Below, piece after piece: positions 1,594 to 34,784 of a stretch of 42,513 nt of DNA. Source of the stretch: a virus. Below the pieces are notes generated by a model. The model was not told the DNA's origin, made no database searches, and saw nothing but the letters and a program-made list of their open reading frames with translations. Location of the stretch: IMG/VR virus record IMGVR_UViG_3300010396_000065, positions 1 to 42,513 of that record. One strand, written 5' to 3'. The position numbers and the translations under genes were made by a program. Within the stretch, counting starts at the first letter, position 1. Every line of letters begins with the position of its first letter.

Positions 1594-1787
1594 ACGGGCG
1601 CCCGACTTCGTCGGCTACGGCATCGATCGCGACGCTGACCGTCAGCCCCGCGACGTATGACGAGATCGCCGCGAAACTCCGCAAGGCCGACTATTTCCAC
1701 TGTCTCCGCGAGGATGGCGTGATCGACATGCGTGGGCTCGGGTTGGTGCGTCTCCCGTCCGCGACGGTGCCGAAGCGGGGATCGTGA
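1590..1787 (+). CDS. hypothetical protein preceding terminase
   Basis: A 65-residue protein coupled by ATGA to the previous gene and by GTGA to the terminase. The middle reads SPATYDEIAAKLRKADYF, then a short strand VIDMRGLGLV. Small proteins with this helix-plus-'DM-G-GLV' layout occur in many phages without an assigned role. I could not identify a separate terminase small subunit in the window. Confidence 0.55.
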   Translation: MNGRPTSSATASIATLTVSPATYDEIAAKLRKADYFHCLREDGVIDMRGLGLVRLPSATVPKRGS

Positions 1788-4228
1788 CTGCGCCCGTGGC
1801 GGAAGATCCGGGCCTATCGGTAGCTGTCGCAAAGCCCCAGCCGCAAGAGCCGCGGATCGCGGCGTTGAAGAAACTCCCGCTCGTCGTGCGCAAGGAGTTG
1901 CTCGCGTCACTTCCGCCGGCTGATCGTGTGGCGATCGAGCACGACTGGAAGCTCTGGGCACGGCCGAAGCAGTTGCCGCCGCCGGGGCAGTGGGAAGTGT
2001 GGTTCTGCCTCGGGGGGCGCGGCGCAGGCAAGTCCAGGACGGGGGCCGAGTTCGTCCACTGGAAGGCCGAGACGATGCCGGGATCGCGTGGCGCGCTCAT
2101 CGGCGCGACGTCTGACGATGTGCGCTATACGATGGTCGAGGGCGAGGCGCTCGCGCTGGATACTCCAATCGTAACGCCGTCCGGATGGACGACCATCGGC
2201 GCGATTCGAGTCGGCGACGAAGTATTCGCGGCGAATGGCATGCCAACGCGGGTAGTCGCAGTCTCGCCGATATGGAATGATCGGCCCTGCTTCAGTCTCG
2301 CGATTGACGGGGCGCAGCCGATCGTGGCAGACGAGAGGCATCTGTGGGTGACGAGCGACCGCAGGGAGAGGGAGCCGCGGCGTTCCGTGCGTGCCGCGAG
2401 TATCAAGACCACCCGCGAGATTGCCGATCGCGTCACCACGCGGAACCGGCCGGATCTCATCGAGCATGAGATTGCAATGAACGCACCGCTTCAGTTGCCG
2501 GAGCGGGAGCTTCCCATTCCTCCCTATACACTCGGTGCGTGGCTCGGTGATGGCGATACGCGAGGACATGGTCAGTTCACCTGTCATCCCCGAGATGCGG
2601 AAATCGTCGAGCGCATCCGCGCTGACGGTTTCGAGGTGAGAAAGCATCGCGAGTCGTATGCATGGGGAATCCTCAAGATCGGCGCGAAACTGAGAAGCGC
2701 CAAGCTCGCTAAGGCAAAACACATTCCCGTCGACTATCTCCGCGCTTCGGCTGCTCAACGGCTTGAACTATTGCGCGGGCTGATGGATACGGACGGGTAT
2801 GTCTCAGAACGCGGGCAGTGTGCATTTGATAACACGAATGCCGCGCTAGTCGCTTCGGTCCGAGAACTGTTGCTGACGCTGGGATTCAAACCGGGAACGA
2901 TTCAGGAAAAGTCTCCGGTGAGCATCAAGCACCGCATGATGTTCCGTCTCACCTTTACATGCAATCGGCGGACGCCAGTTCCGTTTCATCTGCGGCGCAA
3001 GGTCGTGCGTTGCCGCCTCGGAAAGGAATCGGCCGGAAGACTGATCCGGGCTGTCGATTCTGTCTCCTCAGTCTCGACGCGCTGCATTCAGGTGCTCGAT
3101 CCAAGCGGCACGTTCTTGGCCGGCCGCGAGATGGTAGTGACGCACAACTCGGGAATCCTCGCGCACCAGAAGCCGCACAATCCGGTCCGCTACTGGCCGG
3201 CGAAGCGGCTCCTGAAATGGAAGAACGGCGCGCAGGCTCGCACGTTCACCGGCGAGGAACCGCAACGTCTCCGCGGTCCGCAGCATCATTGGGGCTGGCT
3301 CGACGAATGGGCCGCGTTCAAGTATCCGAAGGAAGCGTGGGACCAGTTCATGCTCGGCAAGCGGTTGGGGACGCTCGCACAGGCGTGCGTGACGACGACG
3401 CCGAAGCCGTTCACGGAACTGGTGAAGATCATCACGGACGCGGTCGACGACTGGTCGCTGCGCGGCGCCGATCCCGGCGATCCGATCCTCAAACGGCTCA
3501 TCGCGACAGTCGTCACCATCAGTTCGAGCTATGAGAACCGCGGCAACGTCTCCGACGCTTGGTATGAGCGCACGATCAAAGCCTACGAAGGCACGCGGCT
3601 CTACGATCAGGAAGTGCTGGCGAAGATCCTGACGGATATCGACGGGGCCCTGTGGAAGATGGCGACGATCGAGGCCAGCCGGCTGATGCCGAATCCGGAG
3701 ACGGGCGAGATGCCGAAACTGCCGGAGTTCAAGCGCGTGGTTGTCGCGGTCGATCCGGCCGTGACGTCGGGCAAGCATGCGAACGAGACGGGGATCATGG
3801 TGTGCGCCTCGGCCGGCTCAGGCTCCGAGAAACACGGCTACCTGAAGGAAGACCTGAGCGGGCGGTACACGCCACTACAATGGGGCACGAAGGCCGTCAC
3901 CGCGTTCCATGAGCACAAGGCGGACCGGATCGTGGCCGAGGCGAACAACGGCGGCGAGCTCGTGAAGTCGAACATTCAGGCGATCAACGGAAACGTCCCG
4001 GTGAAGCTGGTGAATGCGAGCCGCGGCAAGATGGTGCGCGCGGAGCCGGTGGCGGCCAAATCCGAGCAAGGGAAAATCCACCATCTCGGCGTATTCGCGA
4101 TGCTGGAGTCGCAGTTGACCACGTACACGCCCGACTCTGGGCTCGAATCGCCGGACCGGATGGATGCGTACGTGTGGGGCATGACCGATCTCTTGCTTGG
4201 CAAGCAGGGCGCGTTTGTAGTAGGTTGA
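1784..4228 (+). CDS. terL: terminase large subunit with in-frame intein
   Basis: The DNA-packaging motor: an ATPase that drives DNA into the prohead and a nuclease that cuts concatemers. The 814-residue precursor has a Walker A motif LGGRGAGKSRTG (76-87, Lys83), an intein (122-455), then the rest of the ATPase with Walker B-like GWLDEW (Asp507, Glu508). The RNase H-like nuclease follows, with VAVDPAVTSG (Asp657), VAEANNGG and DRMDAYVW as the acidic residues. After splicing, the exteins read MVEGE-SGILAHQ and give a mature protein of about 480 residues, normal for phage TerL. The start is GTG, overlapping the previous stop (GTGA). The identity is clear; splicing is inferred from the complete motif set. 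Confidence 0.95.
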   Translation: MTAPVAEDPGLSVAVAKPQPQEPRIAALKKLPLVVRKELLASLPPADRVAIEHDWKLWARPKQLPPPGQWEVWFCLGGRGAGKSRTGAEFVHWKAETMPGSRGALIGATSDDVRYTMVEGEALALDTPIVTPSGWTTIGAIRVGDEVFAANGMPTRVVAVSPIWNDRPCFSLAIDGAQPIVADERHLWVTSDRREREPRRSVRAASIKTTREIADRVTTRNRPDLIEHEIAMNAPLQLPERELPIPPYTLGAWLGDGDTRGHGQFTCHPRDAEIVERIRADGFEVRKHRESYAWGILKIGAKLRSAKLAKAKHIPVDYLRASAAQRLELLRGLMDTDGYVSERGQCAFDNTNAALVASVRELLLTLGFKPGTIQEKSPVSIKHRMMFRLTFTCNRRTPVPFHLRRKVVRCRLGKESAGRLIRAVDSVSSVSTRCIQVLDPSGTFLAGREMVVTHNSGILAHQKPHNPVRYWPAKRLLKWKNGAQARTFTGEEPQRLRGPQHHWGWLDEWAAFKYPKEAWDQFMLGKRLGTLAQACVTTTPKPFTELVKIITDAVDDWSLRGADPGDPILKRLIATVVTISSSYENRGNVSDAWYERTIKAYEGTRLYDQEVLAKILTDIDGALWKMATIEASRLMPNPETGEMPKLPEFKRVVVAVDPAVTSGKHANETGIMVCASAGSGSEKHGYLKEDLSGRYTPLQWGTKAVTAFHEHKADRIVAEANNGGELVKSNIQAINGNVPVKLVNASRGKMVRAEPVAAKSEQGKIHHLGVFAMLESQLTTYTPDSGLESPDRMDAYVWGMTDLLLGKQGAFVVG
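2147..3148 (+). mobile_element. class 3-type intein with LAGLIDADG endonuclease
   Basis: A 334-residue insertion in TerL, residues Ala122 to Asn455. It starts ALALDTPIVTPSGWTTIG (block A, but Ala instead of the usual Cys/Ser) and ends VVTHN followed by Ser456. Block B reads VADERHLWVT with Trp188, block F begins with Cys434 (CIQVLDPSG), and Thr453 precedes the His-Asn end. Trp, Cys and Thr at these places are the published signature of class 3 inteins, in which the block F Cys acts as first nucleophile. Two LAGLIDADG-like motifs (TLGAWLGDG near residue 248, LLRGLMDTDGYV near 330) show a homing endonuclease. All motifs look intact, so both splicing and homing could be active. Confidence 0.9.
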
Positions 4229-4283: not shown

Positions 4284-7139
4284 ATGGCCGATCCCGGCAC
4301 GATGGTCGTGTGGCGTAACGGTCGCCGGGTGACCGTCCCCGCATCGTCGGCCGCGCCGGCCAACCGCATGATCGGCTGGAACGCGGGCCTGCCAATGGCC
4401 GGGATTGGCGACAAGGTCATGAAGACGACGGGCGCGATCCCGTTGCGTGGCGAGGCGCCGTCCGACTATCAGCGCACCGGCACGACCGTCCGGATCCGGG
4501 GCTGGGAGCGGCATCCGGTCGTCCAAGCGTGCATCCGGTGCATCGTGGATATCGCGAGCGCCGTGCCGCTGCAGGTCTACCAGAAGGTGCCGGCCAAGAA
4601 CGCCAGCGGCTTCTCGGACGAGATTCGCGTGCTGACGAGCGAGCATCCGCTGCAGCAGCTGTTCGATGCGCCGAACAGCTTCATGAGCGCGCAGCGGTAT
4701 CGCGGCTTCATGCTCATGCACTATCTCGGCTACGGCAACTCGCTGACGTTCCTCGAGCGCCCGGTCGGGAACGGGGAAGTGACCGGCACGCCGGGAAGTT
4801 CGGTCGATACGAACACGCGGTTGCCGGTGAGCCTTCGGGTGATCCACCCCGAGGACATCACCACCGTCTACGTCAATCACAAGGGCTACCCGCTCTGGTA
4901 TATTTGGCTGGACACGCTGGGGTACCCGCACACGTCGCCGGTGCAGGACATCTTCCACATCCGCGACCTGTCGATGAAGGGCGTGGTGTTCGGCTTCCCG
5001 CGGCTCGCCTCGGCGCTGAACGACATCATCGGCGATGACGAAGCGAGCCAGTTCGTGCGGCAGATCGTCACGAACAACGGTCAGCCGGTCGGCTATGCGA
5101 TCGTCAACGAAGAGACGACGATCGAGGAAGCCGAAGTCGCGGAATCAAAGTTCCGTGAGAAGATGGTCACGCGCGGCGGCCGCGGCTCATTCGTGTTCAT
5201 GGGCGGCGTCTCGGACGTGAAGTCCTTGGCGTTCGACCTCTCGAAGCTGGAGTTTCCAGACCTGCGCCGTGTCGCGCGCGAGGACATCTGCGCTGCGGCG
5301 GGGGTCGATCCGCGCATGGTCGGCATCACGACCGCGACGCGGGACGCCGGCCTGTCGGGGACGCAGTACATCGAGGCGCGGGTCCGGCTCATCAAACAGA
5401 CGATCGAGCCGATGATGCGCGCGATCGAGTCGGAGTTGAATCACTGGGTGTGCCCCGAGTTCGGCGCCGATGTGTATGTCCGGTTCGATCCCGACGCGCT
5501 CGCGGCGCTCTCGGAAGATCGGGACAGCACCAGCAAGCGCGTCCTCACGGAACTGCAGGCCGGCGCGCGCACCGTGCAGGAGACGCGCGAAGTGCTCGAA
5601 CTGCGGCCGGACTATGACCCCGAGGACTTGCTGGCCCCGCTCACGACGGTGGCGATCAAGAGCGTGGAAGTGGCGCTCGAACCGCCCACGCCGCCGAGCT
5701 CTCCCGCGCTCACCAGCGACGGGTCGCCCGTGGTGCACCCGGAAACCGGCGAGCCGTTGCACACGGCGCCGGCTGGCCCGAAGCCGCCACTCGCGTTGCC
5801 GAGCGGGAGCGACGATTCCGATGTTCCGGACGACGACGAGGAGGTGCTCCCCACCGACGAAGGCACGCTCGGTGGCGCGCCGACGCCCGTCCCGGGAAAG
5901 ACGGGAAAGAAGGAAAAGGACGCCGTGGGGCCGAAGGCGACGGACCCCGGCACGAACAAGGACGCGCAAGAAGTGGACCCGAACAAGCCGGACTCGGGCG
6001 GGATCGGGCCGAAGGTGAATGACGGGCTCGCGGAGCCGAAGGCGAAGCGCGCGGCGCGGCTGGCCGTCGTGACGGAAGGCTCCGTGCGGAGCGGGCATGC
6101 GGTCTATCAGCGCGGGATCGTGCTCACGCCGGAACAGCGGACCTCGCTCTGGCAGCAGTTCGATGCGCGCGCAACGAAGGAGGAGGCACCGTTCCGGCGC
6201 CAGGCGTTGCAACTATTCAGCGAGGAGCGGGCGAACATCGCCGCGATCTTCGCACGCGTGGAAGCGAAGGGCGGACCGGATGACGCAACGATGGCGAAGA
6301 GCGCGCGCGCCCAAGTGCGGCGGGCGTATCGCCCCGACGGCGAGGTCAAACTGCGCTGGGCCGATCGGTTCCACCCGCTGATCGGCGCGGTCTACGGCAA
6401 GGGCGCGGACCATGTGCTCACGAGCCTTGCGGCGCATCGGAGCGCGATGCGCGCGGTGTGGAGCGTGCGCGACGACGACCCCACGGGCAAGAAGAAGCCG
6501 ACGGACACCGAGCCGACCTTCGATCCAGCGGCGGGCATCCCGTTCGACTTCGATCTCCAGAATCCGGACGTGCAGCAGGCGGTGCGCGCGCGCGCCGAGC
6601 GGTTGGCCTCACTGGTGGGCGACACGACGGCGGAAGCCATCAGCGAGGCGATCGAGTTCGGCCTGCAGGAAGGGTTGTCAATCGCGGAGATCGCGACGCT
6701 GGTGGATCAGACGGCGTTCGGCGGCCGTGATCCGGTGCGCGCGACAATGATTGCCAGAACGGAAACCGTGGGCAGTCTCAACCAAGGGGAGTTCGATACT
6801 GCCGTGTCGACGGGCATCATCACCGGCAAAGAATGGTTGACGCAGGGCGACGAGCGCGTGCGCGATACTCACTACGCCTGCGAGCGCGAAGGCATGCTGG
6901 CGCTCGACGCGCGCTTTCAGACGAATGGAATGCTGCGCCCGGGCGATCCGGCGGGACCGGCCGACGAGGTGATTAATTGCCGGTGCACGCTCACGTTTTA
7001 CGACACACTCGAACCCGGCAAAAGCTCACTGGAGAATCCCGGCGCGCCGCTCGATCGCGCGGAGGCACGCACCTTCCTGATTCGCGGCGTCGAGCATGTG
7101 CTGCTCGCGCTCCCGCGTTCCACCAACGGCACCCACTGA
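4284..7139 (+). CDS. portal protein fused to MuF-type head protein
   Basis: A 951-residue protein. Residues about 60-430 are an HK97-type portal (HPVVQACIRCIVDIASAVPL at the start, RLASALNDIIGDDEAS mid-way, and a VDPRMVGI turn), which forms the dodecameric DNA entry ring at the capsid vertex. A Pro/Asp/Lys-rich low-complexity linker follows (about 465-590). The C-terminal 330 residues match the Mu gpF / SPP1 gp7 family, with ARTETVGSLNQGEFD near 823 and ADEVINCRCTLTF near 895. These two proteins are usually separate neighbours; here they are one chain. The ORF is open throughout, so this is not a sequencing frameshift I can see. MuF proteins are thought to be minor capsid or ejected proteins. 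Confidence 0.92.
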   Translation: MADPGTMVVWRNGRRVTVPASSAAPANRMIGWNAGLPMAGIGDKVMKTTGAIPLRGEAPSDYQRTGTTVRIRGWERHPVVQACIRCIVDIASAVPLQVYQKVPAKNASGFSDEIRVLTSEHPLQQLFDAPNSFMSAQRYRGFMLMHYLGYGNSLTFLERPVGNGEVTGTPGSSVDTNTRLPVSLRVIHPEDITTVYVNHKGYPLWYIWLDTLGYPHTSPVQDIFHIRDLSMKGVVFGFPRLASALNDIIGDDEASQFVRQIVTNNGQPVGYAIVNEETTIEEAEVAESKFREKMVTRGGRGSFVFMGGVSDVKSLAFDLSKLEFPDLRRVAREDICAAAGVDPRMVGITTATRDAGLSGTQYIEARVRLIKQTIEPMMRAIESELNHWVCPEFGADVYVRFDPDALAALSEDRDSTSKRVLTELQAGARTVQETREVLELRPDYDPEDLLAPLTTVAIKSVEVALEPPTPPSSPALTSDGSPVVHPETGEPLHTAPAGPKPPLALPSGSDDSDVPDDDEEVLPTDEGTLGGAPTPVPGKTGKKEKDAVGPKATDPGTNKDAQEVDPNKPDSGGIGPKVNDGLAEPKAKRAARLAVVTEGSVRSGHAVYQRGIVLTPEQRTSLWQQFDARATKEEAPFRRQALQLFSEERANIAAIFARVEAKGGPDDATMAKSARAQVRRAYRPDGEVKLRWADRFHPLIGAVYGKGADHVLTSLAAHRSAMRAVWSVRDDDPTGKKKPTDTEPTFDPAAGIPFDFDLQNPDVQQAVRARAERLASLVGDTTAEAISEAIEFGLQEGLSIAEIATLVDQTAFGGRDPVRATMIARTETVGSLNQGEFDTAVSTGIITGKEWLTQGDERVRDTHYACEREGMLALDARFQTNGMLRPGDPAGPADEVINCRCTLTFYDTLEPGKSSLENPGAPLDRAEARTFLIRGVEHVLLALPRSTNGTH

Positions 7140-8631: not shown

Positions 8632-10083
8632 ATGCCTGACCAGACGATGCCCGGCATCACGCTCGAGGCGAAGAACCGCAAGGCGAACGACCTGCGCGGC
8701 CGCGCGAACGCGCTGATGCTCGAGATCATGAACGACGACAAGCTGACGGCCGAGCAGTGCGCGGCCAAAGCGAAAGAAGCGAAGGACCTGACCGAGCGCG
8801 CGAACACCATCGCGGGCTTCACGGCCAGTGAGGAAATCGCCCGGCAGGGCGGCAACGGCGACCTCGTGGCCGAAGTCCTGGACGCGGACCGCGCGTCCAA
8901 GGGCGGCGAGTACACGCGGGCCACGCTCGGCTTCGAGCCGGCCGCGCTGATGCGACCGATGCAGGAGCAGATCAAGAAGCACACCGAGGAAGTGCGGATG
9001 GGCTTCGGCTCCGTCTACAACTTCCTGCGCGTGGCGCGCGGCGAGGACGCGGTGGACGTGTCGAACGCCAGCCGCGCGAAGTTCCAGCAGAAGGTGCTGA
9101 AGGACAACCTGACCCTCCAGCGCATGATCACCGGCGCCACGGGCGATGTCTCCGGCGGCTCGTTCCTGCTCCCGCTCACGCAGGTGCAGTCGATCTTCTC
9201 GCTCGCGAACGTGCAGCAGGGCCTCCTGCAGCGCGCGCGGGCCTTCACGGTGCCAGGCCGGTCGCTCCGCATCCCCTACCTGATCCAGAGCGATACCAAC
9301 GCCTCGACGGTGCTGAACCGTCCGATGGCCGGTCAGATCGCACAGGTCGGGATCGTCGGCGAAGGCGCCACGAAGCCGCAGGCGACGCCGCAGTTCGGTC
9401 AGCGCATGCTGAACGTGCTGAAGTATGCGGCGTACACGCAGGTGTCCGACGAAATGCTGATGGACGACTTCACCGGCGAACTGCCGCAGGAGTTCATCAA
9501 CGCCGTCGGCCAGCAGGCGCTCAACTCGCTGAACGAAGACATGACCATCACGGGCAGCGACACGACCGGCACGACCACGCCGGCGGGCGCGCTGTTCGCG
9601 GGCGCGGCGTACAACATCGCCGTGAACCGCGCGGTCGGTGGACAGATCGGCACAGCCGACCTGTTCAAGATGTATAGCGAGTTCACGCACGGCCCGAATG
9701 CGGTCTGGCTGGCATCGCGCCGCACGGTCCAGCAGCTGTATGCGCTGTCGCTGACCAGCTCGTCGCTCGTCACGTTCCTGCGTGACCTGAACGGGCTGCC
9801 GTCGATGATGATCCTCGGGTACCCGGTGGTGCTCACGGACATCCTCAACACCGTCGGCACGGCAGGCGACATCGCACTCGTCAACCCGGACTTCTACGCC
9901 TTCGCGCTGCGCCAGGCGCTGACGGTCGAGATGAGCCGCGACTTCGCCTTCACCTCGGACGTCACGACCTATCGGTTCGTGGTTCGCGGCGGCGGCATCC
10001 CGATCAACGACGGCAAGTACGCGTACAAATATGCGGGCTCGGCCGGCGTCGACGAGCACTCCCCGTTCGTCTACCTGAACTAA
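8632..10083 (+). CDS. HK97-fold major capsid protein
   Basis: A 483-residue major capsid protein that builds the icosahedral shell. Residues 1 to about 110 are charged and helical (NDLRGRANALMLEIMNDDKL, CAAKAKEAKDLTERAN), typical of a delta domain that acts as built-in scaffold and is removed by the neighbouring protease. The rest shows the usual HK97-fold features: LLPLTQVQSIFSLANVQQGL, repeated strand-turn segments, YTQVSDEMLMDD, AVWLASRRTVQQL, and a C-terminal FAFTSDVTTYRFVVRGGG. Position after the protease and length fit the family. Confidence 0.93.
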   Translation: MPDQTMPGITLEAKNRKANDLRGRANALMLEIMNDDKLTAEQCAAKAKEAKDLTERANTIAGFTASEEIARQGGNGDLVAEVLDADRASKGGEYTRATLGFEPAALMRPMQEQIKKHTEEVRMGFGSVYNFLRVARGEDAVDVSNASRAKFQQKVLKDNLTLQRMITGATGDVSGGSFLLPLTQVQSIFSLANVQQGLLQRARAFTVPGRSLRIPYLIQSDTNASTVLNRPMAGQIAQVGIVGEGATKPQATPQFGQRMLNVLKYAAYTQVSDEMLMDDFTGELPQEFINAVGQQALNSLNEDMTITGSDTTGTTTPAGALFAGAAYNIAVNRAVGGQIGTADLFKMYSEFTHGPNAVWLASRRTVQQLYALSLTSSSLVTFLRDLNGLPSMMILGYPVVLTDILNTVGTAGDIALVNPDFYAFALRQALTVEMSRDFAFTSDVTTYRFVVRGGGIPINDGKYAYKYAGSAGVDEHSPFVYLN

Positions 10084-10108
10084 TCGATCACTCGCCGAGT
10101 TTAGGGGA

Positions 10109-10174
10109 ACGGTAGGTACACGGTAGGTACGAGGATTGCGCGGGGCGGCGGAGCTGTCGAGGCCGCCGCCCCGC
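10109..10174 (+). terminator. tandem 11-bp repeat and strong hairpin after capsid gene
   Basis: Downstream of the capsid stop lie two perfect tandem copies of ACGGTAGGTAC (10109-10119 and 10120-10130). A perfect 12-bp GC stem follows: GCGGGGCGGCGG at 10140-10151 pairs with CCGCCGCCCCGC at 10163-10174, with an 11-base loop. No clear T-run follows, so this is either a weak terminator or an mRNA-stabilising 3' hairpin for the abundant capsid transcript. The repeat's role is unknown. Confidence 0.6.
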
Positions 10175-10202
10175 TTCCACTTTGCGGACGAGGACTCTCC
10201 CG

Positions 10203-11441
10203 GTGAAGATGCGCGCGGTCGTGCTCCAGAACGATCTGGACGGCAACCGGATTCAGCCGGGGGCGCTGTTCGACGCCGATGAGGGACGCGGGCGGCAGTT
10301 GATCGAGAGCGGCTATGCGATCTCGCTCGAGCGGCAGGATTATGTGGGCTGGGATCAAGCGTTCGGCCGGCAGTTGGCCCCGCTCCCCGAGGAGACGCAG
10401 TATGGCCGGCGCGAACGCGAGGCGTTGGCATCGCCGCATCCCCGCGTGCTGCAGTTGACGCAGTACGATCCGGGGTGCGCGGCGTACCGCTACCATGCCG
10501 CGTTCAATCACGCGGCCGACGTCGATGGCACCGGAGCCACCAGCGCGTTCGTGCGGTACGGAGAATCCAATCCGTACTGTGACCTGCGGCAGTATGACGG
10601 CTTCCGGCATCGCATCGGCGTGTCGAACCTATTCGAGACGGCCGACATCGTGCACGTGCACATGGATTACACGACGCTTGAGCAGGGGTGCATGAATCGC
10701 TGGCCCGATCGCTCGAAGCAGTTGCTCGTGCGGCACTACCACGGGTCGCAGGGGCCGGAATCCTTCAAGACGGACTATCGGCTCGTGCAGCAGGCGCTGG
10801 ATGAGCAGGTCGGTGCGATCCAGATCGGGGCGCGCCTCTACCATCCGCGGCGCTATGGCGCGCACATCCCCTGGGTGCCGATCCCGGTGCCGTGCGCGGA
10901 CTATGCGGCGCTGCGCGCGAAATACTGGGTGCCGGTCGAGGAGCGGCCGAACAAGCGCATCCGGATCTGCCATTCGCCGACCAACGAGCGGGTCAAGGGC
11001 ACCACGCAACTCGATTTCGTGATGTTCGAGCTCATGCAGAAAGGCTGGCCGATCGAGTACATCAAGGTCATGGGCAAAAAGCACGCCGAGTGCTTGAAGA
11101 TCAAGGCGACGTGCGACATCACCTTCGACTCGTTCTGGCTGGGCATTCAGGGATCCGGGATCGAGGCGTCGGCGATGGGCCAACCCGTGATCGCGGGCGA
11201 CTCGGAGGTGCGGGACGACTATCTCGATGAGATCGGCGAGTGCCCCTACACGTTTGCGAAGGACCACGAGGATATCGTGGGCGTGCTCGAGCGCTTGGTA
11301 TTCGATGAGGCATACCGCGCGAGCGAGGCGGCGCGCACGCGGCGCTATGTGGAGGCCTATCACGATTACCTGCCCGTGGGACGGAAGTATTGGCGGATCA
11401 TCACGGCGGCCCTCAAGGAGCGGAATCTTGTCGCCGCGTGA
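10203..11441 (+). CDS. glycosyltransferase-like protein with small N-terminal domain
   Basis: About 412 residues. The first roughly 40 (VVLQNDLDGNRIQPGALFDAD, then LIESGYAISLE) look like the small beta domain often encoded as a separate short protein after phage capsid genes. The rest resembles a GT-B glycosyltransferase: HPRVLQLTQYDPGCAAYRYH, a DIVHVHMDY segment, HIPWVPIPVP, then RIRICHSPTNERVKGT and a C-terminal GSGIEASAMGQPVIAGDSE matching the GT4 nucleotide-sugar loop. I chose the GTG at 10203, since AGGA at 10191-10194 is eight bases upstream; TTG at 10182 and ATG at 10209 are alternatives. The sugar and acceptor are unknown. Its place behind the capsid gene suggests virion decoration, an inference. 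Confidence 0.8.
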   Translation: MKMRAVVLQNDLDGNRIQPGALFDADEGRGRQLIESGYAISLERQDYVGWDQAFGRQLAPLPEETQYGRREREALASPHPRVLQLTQYDPGCAAYRYHAAFNHAADVDGTGATSAFVRYGESNPYCDLRQYDGFRHRIGVSNLFETADIVHVHMDYTTLEQGCMNRWPDRSKQLLVRHYHGSQGPESFKTDYRLVQQALDEQVGAIQIGARLYHPRRYGAHIPWVPIPVPCADYAALRAKYWVPVEERPNKRIRICHSPTNERVKGTTQLDFVMFELMQKGWPIEYIKVMGKKHAECLKIKATCDITFDSFWLGIQGSGIEASAMGQPVIAGDSEVRDDYLDEIGECPYTFAKDHEDIVGVLERLVFDEAYRASEAARTRRYVEAYHDYLPVGRKYWRIITAALKERNLVAA

Positions 11442-11646
11442 GGCTGGTGCGAAGGGCGCGAAGCCGGCGCGCCGGCTATTGCCGCGGATCAAGGGCGCGA
11501 ATGTCCTATGTCCGAGGCACGGCAGTTCGGCGCTGGCCGGCCCGAATGCCCGGCGCCAGATCGTCTGTTTGCAGTGCGGCTGGACGGCGCCGTATGACCA
11601 TCGAGTCGTGCTCACGCCGCGCGTTGAACCCAACGAGGAGCGCTGA
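11428..11646 (+). CDS. small zinc-ribbon protein with TTG start
   Basis: A 72-residue protein in a different frame from its neighbours. Two metal-binding knuckles are visible, CPRH (Cys-x2-His) and CLQC (Cys-x2-Cys), separated by about 18 residues, giving a short zinc ribbon; the N-terminus is basic. The chosen start is TTG at 11428, since AAGGAG lies at 11415-11420 with a seven-base gap, and no ATG or GTG fits. It overlaps the glycosyltransferase by 14 bases, and its stop overlaps the next start (TGATG). The function is unknown. Confidence 0.6.
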   Translation: MSPREAGAKGAKPARRLLPRIKGANVLCPRHGSSALAGPNARRQIVCLQCGWTAPYDHRVVLTPRVEPNEER

Positions 11647-12569
11647 TGGCCGCCACGACGATTGCGCTCTCGGCGGGCAACGCGCAACTCGGCCTGCCAT
11701 CGACGCTCCTGCCCGTCTCGCTGGCGGTGCTGGTCACGGATGGCAGCGGCAACCCGGTCGCGGGCGTCACCGTGAACTGGCAGGTGGGGACGGGGGCCGG
11801 AACCCTCACGTCACCGACCTCGGTCACGGGAGCGAACGGGATCGCGACGAACGGGTGGACGCTGGGACCGGCGACCGGCCAGCAGATCGTCACCGCGGAC
11901 GTCGCGGGCTTGGCGGGCACCCCGATCGTGTTCACGTCGACCGCCGTACTCGTCACGCCGGCCGACATCACGACGTACTACCGCATCCAGACGAGCGCCG
12001 AGGTCGTGAATGGGCTGATCGCGGAACTCATCAGCGAGGCCCAAGGGGAGATCGAGGGCAACAGCGGGAAGTGCCTCACGATCAAGCCGGTCCTCTGGTA
12101 CGACGACGCGACGACGTTGCGGATTGGCGAGGGCGTCTCGAACCTCATCCTAAAGTACGTGCCGGTCGATCCCGCGAGCATCGTCGTCAAGAACTACATG
12201 GGCGTAACCATCGACCCGGCGACGTACACGGTGCGGCTCGACAAGGGGCTGATCGTGGGACTGCCGGCGAACGGTCCCGGCGCCTTCTTCGCGGGTCCGT
12301 GGAGCCTGTTCAATCAAGGTCCGTACACGATCGCGGCGAACGCGGGCTGGGGCACCTCACCCGATTATGCGACGATCTGGCTCCCGCTCATCCGGCGGGC
12401 GGTCATTGATTATGTGGGATATCTGTTCCAGCAGCGGGATATCGGGGCGTCGGCGCTCAAGGCGGCAGGAACGAGTGTCACGTACGCGATCGATCCGATC
12501 ACGGGCTTGCCTGACCGCGTGGCGCGGGCCATTCGGAAGTTGCGCGGGCCAGTGGTGACCGGCCAATGA
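11646..12569 (+). CDS. head-tail adaptor with N-terminal Ig-like (Big_1-type) domain
   Basis: A 307-residue protein of two parts. Residues about 1-105 form an Ig-like beta sandwich of the invasin/Big_1 type: VLVTDGSGNPVAGVTVNWQV, then GAGTLTSPTSVTGANGIA and a closing GQQIVTADVAGLAGTPIVF. From about 110 on it looks like an HK97 gp6-type connector (ITTYYRIQTSAEVVNGLIAE, YVPVDPASIVVKN, a Tyr/Thr strand pattern, and a C-terminal IRRAVIDYVGYLFQQRDIGA helix), which sits between portal and tail. Ig-like domains on phage virions are usually surface adhesins; on a connector the domain would project from the neck. The domain boundary is an estimate. Confidence 0.75.
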   Translation: MAATTIALSAGNAQLGLPSTLLPVSLAVLVTDGSGNPVAGVTVNWQVGTGAGTLTSPTSVTGANGIATNGWTLGPATGQQIVTADVAGLAGTPIVFTSTAVLVTPADITTYYRIQTSAEVVNGLIAELISEAQGEIEGNSGKCLTIKPVLWYDDATTLRIGEGVSNLILKYVPVDPASIVVKNYMGVTIDPATYTVRLDKGLIVGLPANGPGAFFAGPWSLFNQGPYTIAANAGWGTSPDYATIWLPLIRRAVIDYVGYLFQQRDIGASALKAAGTSVTYAIDPITGLPDRVARAIRKLRGPVVTGQ

Positions 12570-25341: not shown

Positions 25342-26478
25342 ATGAGATTGCATCTTCTCGCCCTGCCGCACACCGTGACCGATCGGACGTTCTCGCACTG
25401 CGCATTCAGTGGAAAAGTCTTGCGCTTCGCGCCGATGTTGCGCGCGCAGGGCTTCGACGTCATCCACTACGGCGTGGAGGGCGCGGAGTCGGGCGCCAAC
25501 GAGCAGGTCGATCTCATGACGCAGGAGGAACACCTCGGCCTCCTCGGTCAACAGCGCTATCACGAAAACGGCACCGGCTTCGTGGGTGACAAGGCGCTGG
25601 TCGGATCGGAGCTGTATCGGCGATTCAACTTCCGGTTGCACGACGAGCTGGTGGATCGGCTCGAGCCCGGCGATGTGATCTGCCTGCCGTTCGGCTACGC
25701 GCATGACAACGCGATCCGTGGACTGGAGTTGCTCAAATCGGGCGAGGCGCGCGCGGTTGAGACGGGCATCGGCTACCCGAACCCCTGCACGATCTACCGC
25801 GTGTTCGAGTCGCAGGCGTGGCGGCACTGGGTCACGGGGAAAGAGGAGCGGGATGGCGCAGGGTGGGACTCGCCACGTCAGGAGTGGGTGATCCCGAACT
25901 ATTACGTGCTCAACGATTGGCCGGTCGTGCTGGAGCCCGCGAATCGCAAGACGGTCGTGTTCTTCGGTCGGATCAACGAGTCGAAGGGGTGCGCGGTGTT
26001 GCCGGTGCTCGCGCGCGCCTTTCCCGGCTTGCATTTCGTGATGTGCGGGCAGGGCGATCCGGCACCGTTCCTCGGGCCGCCGAACCTCGAATACCGGCCA
26101 CCGATCAATGGGGACGGGCGTGCGGAGTTTCTGGGGAACGCGGCGGCCGCGATCTTCCCCTCGCGCATGATCGAACCCTTCTGCGGGGCGGCCGTCGAAG
26201 CGATGTTGTGCGGCACCCCGGTCTTGACATCGGACGCTGGCGCGTTCACGGAGACAAACTTGAATGGGATCACGGGGTATCGCTGCGCGGATCAACGGGC
26301 GTTCATCGCCCGATTGAGTGCCGCGATATTCTTGGATCGGGCGACGGTGGCGGCGTCGGCGCGCGCGCGGTTCTCGACGGAAGTCTGCGGGCCGATGTAC
26401 GCGAACGTTTTTGACGATGTCGCACGCGCCATGCAACGGCTGTCTCTGCCCGCACGCGTATCGGCGGGTGCCGCGTGA
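25342..26478 (+). CDS. glycosyltransferase, GT4-like
   Basis: A 378-residue GT-B enzyme expected to move a sugar from a nucleotide donor. The C-terminal domain shows VVFFGRINESKGCAVLPVLA (the phosphate-binding start of the second Rossmann domain), LHFVMCGQGDP, AAAAIFPSRMIEPFCGAAVE and AMLCGTPVLTSDAGAFTE, the E-x7-E type region with Pro-Val-(L/I) typical of GT4. The N-terminus has a weak Rossmann pattern (FAPMLRAQGFDVIHYGVEG). It follows the tail-tip gene by six bases and overlaps the PAS gene by GTGA. The acceptor is unknown. Confidence 0.88.
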   Translation: MRLHLLALPHTVTDRTFSHCAFSGKVLRFAPMLRAQGFDVIHYGVEGAESGANEQVDLMTQEEHLGLLGQQRYHENGTGFVGDKALVGSELYRRFNFRLHDELVDRLEPGDVICLPFGYAHDNAIRGLELLKSGEARAVETGIGYPNPCTIYRVFESQAWRHWVTGKEERDGAGWDSPRQEWVIPNYYVLNDWPVVLEPANRKTVVFFGRINESKGCAVLPVLARAFPGLHFVMCGQGDPAPFLGPPNLEYRPPINGDGRAEFLGNAAAAIFPSRMIEPFCGAAVEAMLCGTPVLTSDAGAFTETNLNGITGYRCADQRAFIARLSAAIFLDRATVAASARARFSTEVCGPMYANVFDDVARAMQRLSLPARVSAGAA

Positions 26479-28105: not shown

Positions 28106-28647
28106 AAGAATGGACGTTCAACCGCGACGACCAGAACGAATACCGGACGTATGCGACGATCCTCCGTGAGGACGGCTCGCGCTTCGGCGACCTGCTCGAG
28201 CTGCCGTGGAAGGGCAACGCGCACGATGTCTCGTGCATTCCCGGCAATCAGCACTACCTGCTCGATCTCGTCTGGTCGAAGAAGCACGCGGGCGGCCGGT
28301 ACTGCTACCGCGACGTGCCGGGACCCACGGGCGAACCGAGCGATGAGCGCACCGGCTGTGAAATCCACAGCGCGAACATTCCCGCGCAGTTGCTCGGCTG
28401 TCAGGCGCCGGGGTATGCGCGGGTGCCGATGATGCCGATCAACGGTTTCCCGCCGCAGGACGGCGTCGCAAGCTCCGGGGACGCGACCATGAACTTCTAT
28501 CGCGAGTGCGGTGTCGAGAACTATCTCGCGTTGAACACACCCGATCTCGTGGCGCTGTTCGTGCGTGAGCATCCCGAGGCCGCAACAATCGGGGTGCAGA
28601 TCAACAACCCGCCCGTGGGCTTGCCGCCCATCGAGGTGGACGCATGA
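28102..28647 (+). CDS. DUF5675-family protein
   Basis: A 181-residue protein with the DUF5675 signature: an early strand TYATILREDGSRFGDLLELP, then WKGNAHDVSCIPGNQHYLLD, a central VPGPTGEPSDERTGCEIHSA and NIPAQLLGCQAPGY. These proteins are frequent in phages and near lysis genes; their biochemical role is not known to me. The C-terminal 45 residues look like an added helical piece (NFYRECGVENYLALNTPDLV). The start overlaps the previous stop and the end overlaps the next gene. Confidence 0.75.
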   Translation: MKEWTFNRDDQNEYRTYATILREDGSRFGDLLELPWKGNAHDVSCIPGNQHYLLDLVWSKKHAGGRYCYRDVPGPTGEPSDERTGCEIHSANIPAQLLGCQAPGYARVPMMPINGFPPQDGVASSGDATMNFYRECGVENYLALNTPDLVALFVREHPEAATIGVQINNPPVGLPPIEVDA

Positions 28648-29267
28648 CCGCGCCCGCGATCTCGGTCATTGTTCCGACGGTATCGTGGCGCGCCGCGCTC
28701 TATGCGGAGGCGCTCGCTGGGCTCAGCGCCCAGACGCTCCCGCGCGAGCAGTTCGAGATCGTGACGGCGTGCGATGACTCGACCGATGCCACGAAGTTCA
28801 ACCGGATGCTCGCGCGGTGCACCGGCGAGTTCGTGCTGTGGCACGCCGACGATGACCGGTTGCGACCGCACGCGCTGGAACACATGCTGGCAAAGGCGCG
28901 CGCGACAGGCGCGCACGTGATTTCGAGCGATGTGCAGACGTTCGGCGATCTCGGGCCGGGGCCGATCGCGCATTTCACCGATGGGCCGTGGACGTTCCAG
29001 AGCTTTCGCCACGGGCCGCCGATCTGGATCACATCCCTAATCGATCGCGCGCGGTGCATCGCGGCCGGCGGCTTCGCGTTCGACGCGCTCGTCTACGCGG
29101 ATTGGGCCTTGTGGTATGAGCTCTGGAAGGGCGGGGCGCAGAATGCGCACGTGAGCGAGGTGCTCTGGGACTACCGGTCGCATAGTGATCAGGCCTCGAC
29201 CCGGATCGATCCGAAGGCGTGCCGCGCGGCCTTCTATGCGAGGTATCCCGAGTTGTTTCCGGGGTAG
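28644..29267 (+). CDS. glycosyltransferase family 2-like protein
   Basis: A 207-residue GT-A type enzyme. It begins PAISVIVPTVSWRAALYAEA, continues with QTLPREQFEIVTACDDSTDA, and has the metal- and sugar-nucleotide-binding triplet in VLWHADDDRLRPHALEHML, the DxD-type motif. The later ARCIAAGGFAFDALVYADWA, with Asp in the acceptor loop, and DYRSHSDQAS also fit GT2. It is near the lower size limit for a full catalytic domain. This is the third glycosyltransferase in the window, and its target is unknown. Confidence 0.85.
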   Translation: MTAPAISVIVPTVSWRAALYAEALAGLSAQTLPREQFEIVTACDDSTDATKFNRMLARCTGEFVLWHADDDRLRPHALEHMLAKARATGAHVISSDVQTFGDLGPGPIAHFTDGPWTFQSFRHGPPIWITSLIDRARCIAAGGFAFDALVYADWALWYELWKGGAQNAHVSEVLWDYRSHSDQASTRIDPKACRAAFYARYPELFPG

Positions 29268-31506: not shown

Positions 31507-31698
31507 ATGAACGCTGCGGAAGCCGCCCGATACGTCGGCGTCTCTGTGGCGGCGGTGCATCAGCGCCGGGAGAACCCGCGCAAGCAGCTGTCCGCCCGGC
31601 AGGTCAATGGCGTGTGGGTCTACTGGACGCCCGATCTCGATGCATGGCGCCTTGAGCGCAAGGCAGCGGCACTCGCCAAGCTGGAACATCTACAGTAG
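31507..31698 (+). CDS. small helix-turn-helix protein (MerR/excisionase-like)
   Basis: A 63-residue protein with NAAEAARYVGVSVAAVHQRR, the classic start of a MerR/Xis-type helix-turn-helix, a short wing (ARQVNGVWVYWTPDLDAWR) and a closing helix. I chose the ATG at 31507, with GAGGA at 31498-31502; an ATG at 31486 would add seven residues and overlap the operator. It probably binds DNA, likely near the half-site cluster just upstream, as inference. No integrase is present, so an excisionase role is unlikely. Confidence 0.7.
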   Translation: MNAAEAARYVGVSVAAVHQRRENPRKQLSARQVNGVWVYWTPDLDAWRLERKAAALAKLEHLQ

Positions 31699-31753
31699 AC
31701 GGGACGGGTCGCCCACATGCGGGCGGCGCGAACACGAAGCGGAGGGCGATCGG

Positions 31754-32797
31754 ATGAATGAGGCAGACGCACGCGAGGTCGAAGCGCGTAAGGCAGGATG
31801 GCTCGGCAAGCGCCGGACGTTGATCACGGCGACGGACGCAGCGAAGGTGCTGGGCTTCTCGCCCTGGGGCACCCAGATTGATGTCTGGCTGGACAAGCGG
31901 GGCGAAGCGCCAGAGCGTGAGGAAAACGCGGCCATGCGCCGAGGGAAGCGGCGGGAACGGTTGGTGCTCGAAGCGTACGCCGACGATGAACAGACCGAGA
32001 TCGCGTTTGCCGATCCATTCCACGTCCTAACGAATCCGCGTGTGCCGCACCTCGGGGCGACGCTGGATGCGCAGCGGCTGGACGACGGTCGCTCGGTCGA
32101 AGCGAAAACGGCGCGGTGGCCCGGTGCCGAGTGGGGACCGCACGACACGGACATCATGCCGATGCATTACGCGACGCAGTTGTATGTGCAGATGATCGTG
32201 ACCGCGACCGACGTCGCAGACCTGCCGGTGGAGTTCTACGGAGAGGAGTATCGGCGGTATCGTCTCCACCGCGATCCGGTGACGTCGGAGAAGATCGTGG
32301 ACATGCTCGGCGAGTTCTGGACGAACTACATCGCCACGGGCAAGGTGCCGCCGATCGACGGCTCGAAGAGTTATGCGGCCTTCCTCCAGCGGCGCTTCGC
32401 GAAGCACACCGAGGCCGTCGTGCATTCGAACGCGGCCGTGGATCGGGTGGCGACCACGCTGGCGCTGGTCCGAGGACAGATCGCGGCACTGACCGCGCAG
32501 AAGATCGAGGCAGAGAATACGATCAAGGCGGCGATCGCGGACGCAAAGAAGATTGAAGGGCCGAACTGGCAGGCGTCCTGGTCGAAGGCGAAGGATGGTG
32601 TCAAGGTGGACTGGGAAGCAGTGGCGTATGATGTCGCTGGCGAGCTCGCGCTGTCGCGCGCCGCGCATGCGCACCAGCAGATCACGCCGGATGGCGTCGT
32701 GCGGGAGCGGGTGGAGAAGTTCTCGACGCCGAAGCCGGGCGTGCGCCGATTCCTGTTCAAGTCGGAAGAGGACACGTCAGGGGAGGCGGACGCATGA
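31754..32797 (+). CDS. YqaJ-type recombination exonuclease
   Basis: A 347-residue nuclease of the lambda-exonuclease/YqaJ family that resects double-strand ends to give 3' single strands for the annealase. The core is at residues 25-175: LITATDAAKVLGFSPWGTQI, the RRGKRRERLVLEAYA helix, LGATLDAQRL with Asp, SVEAKTA with Glu and Lys, and MHYATQLYVQMIVTATDVAD. A helical C-terminal region (about 220-300) is an extra coiled part. The start at ATG 31754 has GGAGGG at 31741-31746. The stop overlaps the RecT start, as in other phage exonuclease-RecT pairs. Confidence 0.88.
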   Translation: MNEADAREVEARKAGWLGKRRTLITATDAAKVLGFSPWGTQIDVWLDKRGEAPEREENAAMRRGKRRERLVLEAYADDEQTEIAFADPFHVLTNPRVPHLGATLDAQRLDDGRSVEAKTARWPGAEWGPHDTDIMPMHYATQLYVQMIVTATDVADLPVEFYGEEYRRYRLHRDPVTSEKIVDMLGEFWTNYIATGKVPPIDGSKSYAAFLQRRFAKHTEAVVHSNAAVDRVATTLALVRGQIAALTAQKIEAENTIKAAIADAKKIEGPNWQASWSKAKDGVKVDWEAVAYDVAGELALSRAAHAHQQITPDGVVRERVEKFSTPKPGVRRFLFKSEEDTSGEADA

Positions 32798-33771
32798 GCA
32801 CCAACGACGCGCAGGAATCCACGGCACTCGCGAAGCCGGAGGACGCGAAAGACGAGGCGACGGAATCGCTGAAGAAGTTCCTCGAAAAGCATCGCGAGGC
32901 GATCGTTTCGGCGGCGGCGAATCGGATCAATCCAGACCGGGTGCTGAAGGTGGCGCTGCTCGCCGTCACGAAAGCACCACAGCTCTCGCACCCCAAGACG
33001 GATCGCATGAGTCTTCTGCGGTCGATCGTCTCCGCGGCCTCGCTCGGCTTGGAGGCGGGTTCGGCGCTGGGCGAGGCGTATCTCGTGCCTTACTGGAACA
33101 AAAACACGGGCCGGTACGATGTGGAGTTGATCATCGGATACCGTGGACTGGTGACGCTGGCAAGGCGCAGCGGGTCGATCAAGAGCGTGGACTCCCGTCC
33201 GGTGTTCGAGGGGGAGCGCTTCGAGCCGCATTATGGCACGGACCCGAAGATCATTCATGTGCCCGACTTCTCCATCGCGCGGACGCCGGACACGCTGACG
33301 GCGGTCTACACGGTGTGGAAGTTGGAGGACGGCGGCGAGCAGTTCGATATCATGAGCAAGGAAGAAGTTGAGGCCATCCGCACGCGGTCGAAGGCGAAGG
33401 ACAATGGACCGTGGAAAACCGACTACATCGAAATGGCGAAAAAGACCGTCACGCGTCGATCGGTGAAGATGGTGCCCATGTCCATCGAAATGGCCGAGGC
33501 GCTGGATGATGATACGCGGCGCGAGTTCGGCGATCTGGAGTTGGGCACCGTGACCGATGAGACGGAGGCGCTCGACGGGAAGGGCGCGAACGCGAAGCTG
33601 GCGGCGATGCTTCCGTCGTCCACGAAGGCGAACGAACCCAGCGGACCAAGCGAACGGCAACGTCGGCTGATCGAGAACGAACACACGCCGGGCGCGCTGG
33701 GCGATGAGGACAAGGAAGAACTGCGGCAGTTGAAGCTCGATCATCCTGAATGGTTCAAGGCGGCGTCGTGA
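32794..33771 (+). CDS. recT: RecT-family single-strand annealing protein
   Basis: A 325-residue annealase that coats 3' single strands and pairs them with complementary DNA. Family traits: INPDRVLKVALLAVTKAPQL, SLLRSIVSAASLGLEAGSAL, GEAYLVPYWNKNTG, VELIIGYRGLVTLARRSG, and YIEMAKKTVTRRSVK near 215-230. A charged C-terminal tail (about 260-325) may contact the exonuclease. It works with the upstream YqaJ protein in recombination-dependent replication or repair. Confidence 0.92.
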   Translation: MSTNDAQESTALAKPEDAKDEATESLKKFLEKHREAIVSAAANRINPDRVLKVALLAVTKAPQLSHPKTDRMSLLRSIVSAASLGLEAGSALGEAYLVPYWNKNTGRYDVELIIGYRGLVTLARRSGSIKSVDSRPVFEGERFEPHYGTDPKIIHVPDFSIARTPDTLTAVYTVWKLEDGGEQFDIMSKEEVEAIRTRSKAKDNGPWKTDYIEMAKKTVTRRSVKMVPMSIEMAEALDDDTRREFGDLELGTVTDETEALDGKGANAKLAAMLPSSTKANEPSGPSERQRRLIENEHTPGALGDEDKEELRQLKLDHPEWFKAAS

Positions 33772-34139: not shown

Positions 34140-34234
34140 TATCGGATGAGGGCGTGCAGGGATCGCTGTTCGGCTTCCCCATCGTGGTGGACGAGACGTT
34201 GGAAACGCCACCCATCGCGTTCTATGCTCGCTGA
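34136..34234 (+). CDS. 32-residue hypothetical protein
   Basis: The ATG overlaps the preceding stop (ATGA), and the frame ends within the first codons of the HNH gene. Product: MISDEGVQGSLFGFPIVVDE and then ETLETPPIAFYAR (with shared residues at the join). The coupling suggests a real small gene; nothing is known about it. Confidence 0.4.
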   Translation: MISDEGVQGSLFGFPIVVDETLETPPIAFYAR

Positions 34235-34784
34235 CCACGCTGTCAATGATTCGCCGCGCTCTTGCACGCGGTGCAGAAAACCGAGAGACACAGCGTACAC
34301 TCGTTGCTTCAGATGCCGTGAACGAGACCAGATCGCATATCGAAAGTGGTGCGAACAGAATCCAGAAAGGGTCCGTGAATACGGAAAGCGCAACTATGCT
34401 CGGCATCCCGAAAGGGCCAAAAAAAGCGCACGCGAATGGGCAAAGAAAAATCCAGAAAAACGTTCGCGTATAATGGCCTTTCAGAACGCTAAGCGTAGAT
34501 CACGACAGAAGGCGAACGGTGGGCGCGGATTCACAAAAGCCCACTGGAACAAGCTCTTAGCAAAATGCGGAAACGTTTGCGCGTATTGTCGGACAGCCCC
34601 AGCGACGAGTATTGACCACTTCATGCCGCTTGCGGGTGGTGGTAAGCATGATTTCTCCAATCTCGTTCCGGCCTGCAGATCCTGCAACTCACTCAAAGGA
34701 CAGAAAGACCCTCGGACGTGGATCGTTGAACGATTCGGAGAAGAAAGACTAGAGTTTGTGCGCTCAATCAGGCTTCGGAAATAA
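34224..34784 (+). CDS. HNH homing-endonuclease-like protein
   Basis: A 186-residue protein. Residues about 14-30 hold two Cys knuckles (CTRCRKPRDTAYTRCFRCRE), followed by a very basic region (KKSAREWAKKNPEKRSR, AKRRSRQK). The HNH core is at about 112-160: CGNVCAYCRTAPATSIDHFM, PLAGGGKHDFSNLVPACRSC, NSLKGQKDP, with the Cys pairs and D-H of the metal site. DNA from about 34240 to 34780 is visibly richer in A+T than its neighbours, as expected for an invading free-standing homing gene. It overlaps the preceding small gene by 11 bases. Confidence 0.85.
   Translation: MLADHAVNDSPRSCTRCRKPRDTAYTRCFRCRERDQIAYRKWCEQNPERVREYGKRNYARHPERAKKSAREWAKKNPEKRSRIMAFQNAKRRSRQKANGGRGFTKAHWNKLLAKCGNVCAYCRTAPATSIDHFMPLAGGGKHDFSNLVPACRSCNSLKGQKDPRTWIVERFGEERLEFVRSIRLRK

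Follow-up and report, generated by a model that had tools for sequence, protein, structure and literature searches.

The window analysed here spans the whole of an IMG/VR virus record, 42,513 bases long. Near its 5' end, an 814-aa open reading frame (1784-4228, + strand) encodes the precursor of a terminase large subunit (TerL), whose outer parts match Pfam Terminase_6N (3e-17) and Terminase_6C (6e-10) and whose middle matches LAGLIDADG_3; the same frame also matches PHROG terminase families. Genes for a portal, a prohead protease and a major head protein lie downstream, and a gene for a cold-shock domain protein (712-1107, +; Pfam CSD, 3e-20) lies 5' of TerL. Two putative glycosyltransferase genes were found elsewhere in the window (25342-26478 and 28644-29267, both +).

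An uninterrupted insert in the terminase gene

The middle of the TerL frame (2147-3148, +) comprises 334 codons without a stop, starting with ALALDTPIVTPSGW and ending with GREMVVTHN, and is here assigned to a class 3 intein with a LAGLIDADG endonuclease from its empty-site siblings, its matches to class 3 inteins in the Protein Data Bank (PDB) and its AlphaFold2 model. It separates an N-extein of 121 aa ending in VRYTMVEGE (1784-2146, +) from a C-extein of 359 aa plus the stop codon (3149-4228, +), whose first residue would be the nucleophile Ser+1. As the first-pass annotation had claimed, the insert sits between the Walker A motif GGRGAGKS of the N-extein (2012-2035, +) and a Walker B-like motif, WGWLDEW, inside the C-extein (starting at 3290, +).

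Two siblings, L017 and L018, were found by searching viral contigs with the C-extein as query, over which they are 84% identical to the window; their TerL is 83% identical to that of the window and collinear with its N-extein. Both read without interruption through the site as YTM(V/I)EGESGLL, and the insert therefore corresponds exactly to one element, lying between Glu121 and Ser456 of the precursor (EGE↓SG, the arrow marking the insertion point). At the DNA level, the flanks of the window align with those of the siblings on both sides and the alignment ends at the insert. The window and L017 share 20 of 20 bases upstream of the site; on the downstream side of the putative target, 11-12 of 20 bases match in the siblings (11/20 in L017), the 3' half being less conserved. 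As residues E119-G120-E121-S122-G123 are invariant in six of six aligned TerLs, the insert occupies a conserved motif. A chance open frame or a frame artefact was ruled out, since phmmer matches the insert to class 3 inteins in the PDB at 9e-23 and two intein-free siblings lack precisely these codons. The limits 2147-3148, proposed earlier from the letters alone, thus proved exact to the base, and all the residue positions given with them were correct in precursor numbering (Ala122, His186, Trp188, Cys434, Thr453, His454, Asn455 and Ser456). The recommended comparison with intein-free TerL, together with the sequence itself, also bears out TerL as the host.

Predicted splicing residues of the insert

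Class 3 inteins are recognised by Trp N3:12, Cys C2:4 and Thr C1:5 (PMC7891396). In the window, residue 1 of the insert, whose boundary is set by the empty siblings, is Ala (2147-2149, +), in place of an N-terminal Cys or Ser. Block B contains His65-Leu-Trp67 (2339-2347, +; precursor His186 and Trp188), with Trp at position B:12 and both positions matching His65 and Trp67 of the Mch DnaB1 intein. Block F carries Cys313 at F:4 (3083-3085, +; precursor Cys434), which aligns with Mch DnaB1 Cys124 and is the predicted first nucleophile, and block G ends the insert with Thr332-His333-Asn334 (3140-3148, +), Thr being at G:5 and the terminal Asn being followed by Ser+1. Conservation was counted in the nearest 80 viral relatives among the matches listed, and there His65, Trp67, Cys313, Thr332 and Asn334 are invariant (80/80), His333 being kept in 76.

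Searching the PDB with the single sequence (phmmer) returned Mch DnaB1 (6rix, the 9e-23 match mentioned above) and Msm DnaBi1 (6bs8, 1e-20) as top matches, and a profile search reached class 3 inteins at 9e-35 with Ala1, His65, Trp67, the block F Cys and Thr-His-Asn aligned. Mch DnaB1 uses Cys124, His65 and Thr143, together with Trp67 (PMC7664689), a set that corresponds here to Cys313, His65, Thr332 and Trp67. Alignment to these solved inteins, one of the checks suggested in the first-pass annotation, places the block B Trp in its class 3 position. In the AlphaFold2 model, a Hint fold is predicted that superimposes on 6bs8 and 6rix with TM scores of 0.79-0.85, normalised by target length. Given the aligned residues and their invariance among relatives, the published class 3 signature is complete; the assignment proposed earlier is therefore supported by sequence, empty-site comparison and structure model alike, and the insert would be expected to splice as a class 3 intein.

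An N-terminal Ala, without Cys or Ser at position 1, is also what a class 2 intein would show, in which Ser+1 would attack the N-terminal splice bond directly and the block F Cys would not be used. Class 2 inteins, however, are all found in KlbA orthologs and have Ser G:6, Asp F:4 and Cys+1 (PMC4031507), whereas the window intein lies in TerL, has His G:6, Cys F:4 and Ser+1 and carries the full Trp-Cys-Thr (WCT) set. Class 2 identity was rejected on these grounds, and we regard such a route as extremely improbable. It is also very improbable, if somewhat less so, that the insert is a broken intein that does not splice and leaves the phage with a dead TerL: the source is an uncultured contig, which would allow for this, but the frame is open over 334 codons, the catalytic residues are all kept and the TerL domains are intact on either side.

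The endonuclease domain and a proposed homing cycle

The central part of the class 3 intein contains two LAGLIDADG motifs. The first, TLGAWLGDG (intein residues 128-136; 2528-2554, +), aligns with GLWIGDG of PI-SceI and supplies the catalytic Asp135, present in 76 of the 80 relatives; the second, LRGLMDTDG (residues 209-217; 2771-2797, +), was detected by Pfam LAGLIDADG_3 (3e-7) and by the PI-SceI alignment, and supplies the catalytic Asp216 (79/80). Between them, the block D Lys191 in KHIP (2717-2719, +) aligns with KNIP of PI-SceI and is kept in 80/80. A family profile aligns with PI-SceI across residues 122-267, with both Asp residues and the Lys matching, so that the two motifs with catalytic Asp and the block D Lys of a LAGLIDADG homing endonuclease are all present. 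The AlphaFold2 model of the intein (pLDDT 90.5, pTM 0.90) combines a Hint domain with a LAGLIDADG domain resembling that of PI-SceI; helices span residues 126-135 and 202-216. Foldseek ranked PI-SceI first (1.6e-17) and placed 6bs8 and 6rix on the Hint part.

The endonuclease thus looks intact, as judged from sequence and model, in agreement with the earlier view that both motifs are, and it probably cuts DNA. A different outcome, that the intein splices as class 3 while its endonuclease is inactive, as in the decaying copies at this site in Microbacterium phages, finds some support in the same-site inteins of L012, L019, L020 and L185-L187, which are down to 264-271 aa and no longer have the motif 1 Asp, and in the poor conservation of the downstream half of the target in the siblings. 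The window copy, in contrast, is full length, keeps both motifs with Asp135, Asp216 and Lys191, and has a confidently predicted endonuclease fold, so we consider inactivity unlikely.

Base composition sets the intein apart from its host gene. Its GC at third codon positions is 67% (62% in the endonuclease part), versus 82-84% in the exteins, and every 1002-base stretch in the long genes sampled has at least 71.6%. As this value is lower than in every other long gene sampled, the intein looks acquired, and, on composition, after TerL had taken on that of the genome. No near-identical copy was found among the viral matches listed, the closest relative there being the same-site intein of contig L181, with 42% identity.

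Taken together, the locus is best explained, with high confidence, by a tailed phage whose TerL gene harbours a mobile class 3 intein; this rests on the sequence, the precise limits of the insert, the conservation of its key residues, its predicted fold and the empty alleles of the siblings. According to this model, the TerL precursor would be made as one whole polypeptide, in which Cys313 of the intein would attack the peptide bond preceding Ala1 to give a branched thioester. The N-extein would then pass to Ser+1 of the C-extein, cyclisation of Asn334 would release the intein, and an acyl shift would yield intact TerL, joined as EGE-SG. The central LAGLIDADG domain would cut intein-free TerL at the EGE↓SG codons, and repair would then copy the intein in. 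The window also encodes, in tandem, a RecE-like exonuclease and a RecT-like annealing protein (31607-33771, +), and such phage recombination proteins could help in repair-driven homing. A free-standing HNH endonuclease gene (34146-34784, +) lies directly 3' of the RecT-like gene.

The EGE↓SG site and comparison with known inteins

Among annotated phages, the intein has matches in 734 records (E 1e-3), 508 of which cover 80% or more of its length. The nearest relatives inspected lie mostly within Walker A (GK↓S/T), judged by flanking residues. Insertion at EGE↓SG is less common: searching with a strict DNA pattern of the junction EGE-ALALDT returned eight viral contigs, one of them with the intein in a portal-like gene, and a junction probe returned seven Microbacterium phage records with class 3 inteins at this site. 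A hand-composed class-3-like probe was used solely for finding extra phage matches, and its sequence is not evidence. Uninterrupted EGES[GA] loci numbered 148 of 160, a biased figure that is uninformative on site occupancy because the patterns by which the loci were selected include EGESG. A branch of the tree with modest support (82/59) has the EGE-site inteins together on one side, which is consistent with a single lineage but is not proof of it. That EGE↓SG represents a terminase intein site of its own, unnamed in the survey of PMC5050341 and occupied by one old class 3 lineage, is accordingly offered as a tentative proposal, which we hold slightly less probable than its converse. If it were true, a single lineage would supply empty alleles, decayed copies and homing copies of full length, and homing by a class 3 intein could be traced through its cycle at one conserved motor motif.

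Several related arrangements were observed during these searches. A 1,248-aa open frame for TerL in L181 (IMGVR_UViG_3300037722_000708, 9110-11788, -) contains three inteins: a class 3 intein in Walker A, another at EGE↓SG, and a class 1 mini-intein of 124 aa (Cys1, HN↓C) close to Walker B. In L182 (IMGVR_UViG_3300036668_000246, 5909-6952, -), the second of the class 3 inteins in TerL starts with an unusual Arg (RLDIATP), ends in Thr-Ser-Asn and forms the longest branch of the tree; the same site is empty in its sibling L184 (RGPQF↓SHAWGDE). In a portal-like protein of L183 (IMGVR_UViG_3300009149_000384, 439-1416, +), a class 3 intein follows Glu-Gly-Glu (FEGE↓SILRG), a site that may be a coincidence since the search pattern selected for EGE. 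Finally, class 3 inteins located after PQK in terminase-like proteins (L002-L005) end in Thr-Gly-Asn, without the penultimate His.

Terminase inteins grouped with class 3 have been described in mycobacteriophages, where TerL1-c, -d and -e lie in the terminase ATPase domain, splicing having been shown for c and e and DNA cutting for c (PMC5050341). Their hosts are Terminase_1 proteins, whereas the window host is Terminase_6, and the insertion points differ. The Beatrix insert, inferred to represent site c, follows SQDQ and begins P/LALNT; identity with TerL1-c was rejected, as SQDQ lies near the helix start and the window insert about 10 residues further on. LittleE (d) is interrupted at HEFK↓T, and JonJames and Nebkiss (e type) just after the Walker B Glu. 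Compared with these examples, EGE↓SG belongs to a Terminase_6 protein, precedes Walker B and corresponds to none of the named sites a-g. Of the seven terminase sites a-g in mycobacteriophages, the sole one in Terminase_6 is in the C-motif (PMC5050341); by description none of the seven is EGE↓SG, and other surveys beyond the open-licence literature may name it.

The Microbacterium phages Pumpernickel, Cece, A3Wally, Big4 and Zooman have inteins that share EGE↓SG, an insertion point read completely in the first three, and the same WCT set; the copies inspected, 264-271 aa long and with a decayed endonuclease, are 30-35% identical to the window intein. The second intein of L181 has, like that of the window, a full-length endonuclease at this site, but in a TerL with three inteins rather than one. 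The first-pass annotation was mistaken in calling class 3 the rarest class, as class 2 is the one confined to KlbA orthologs (PMC4031507) and a count of nr up to 2020 gave 1,701 class 3 inteins, of which 82.5% had LAGLIDADG (PMC7891396). With terminase class 3 inteins that splice and cut already documented (PMC5050341), the window intein is an ordinary further example and leaves views on intein function or spread unchanged. It contributes a class 3 intein of full length at the terminase motif EGESG, for which the empty siblings are a ready natural target. Mch DnaB1 and Msm DnaBi1 share with it Ala1, His65, Trp67, the block F Cys, Thr-His-Asn and the Hint fold, but are mini-inteins in a bacterial helicase, whereas the window intein bears a LAGLIDADG domain in a phage terminase and could be an endonuclease-bearing counterpart to these solved structures.
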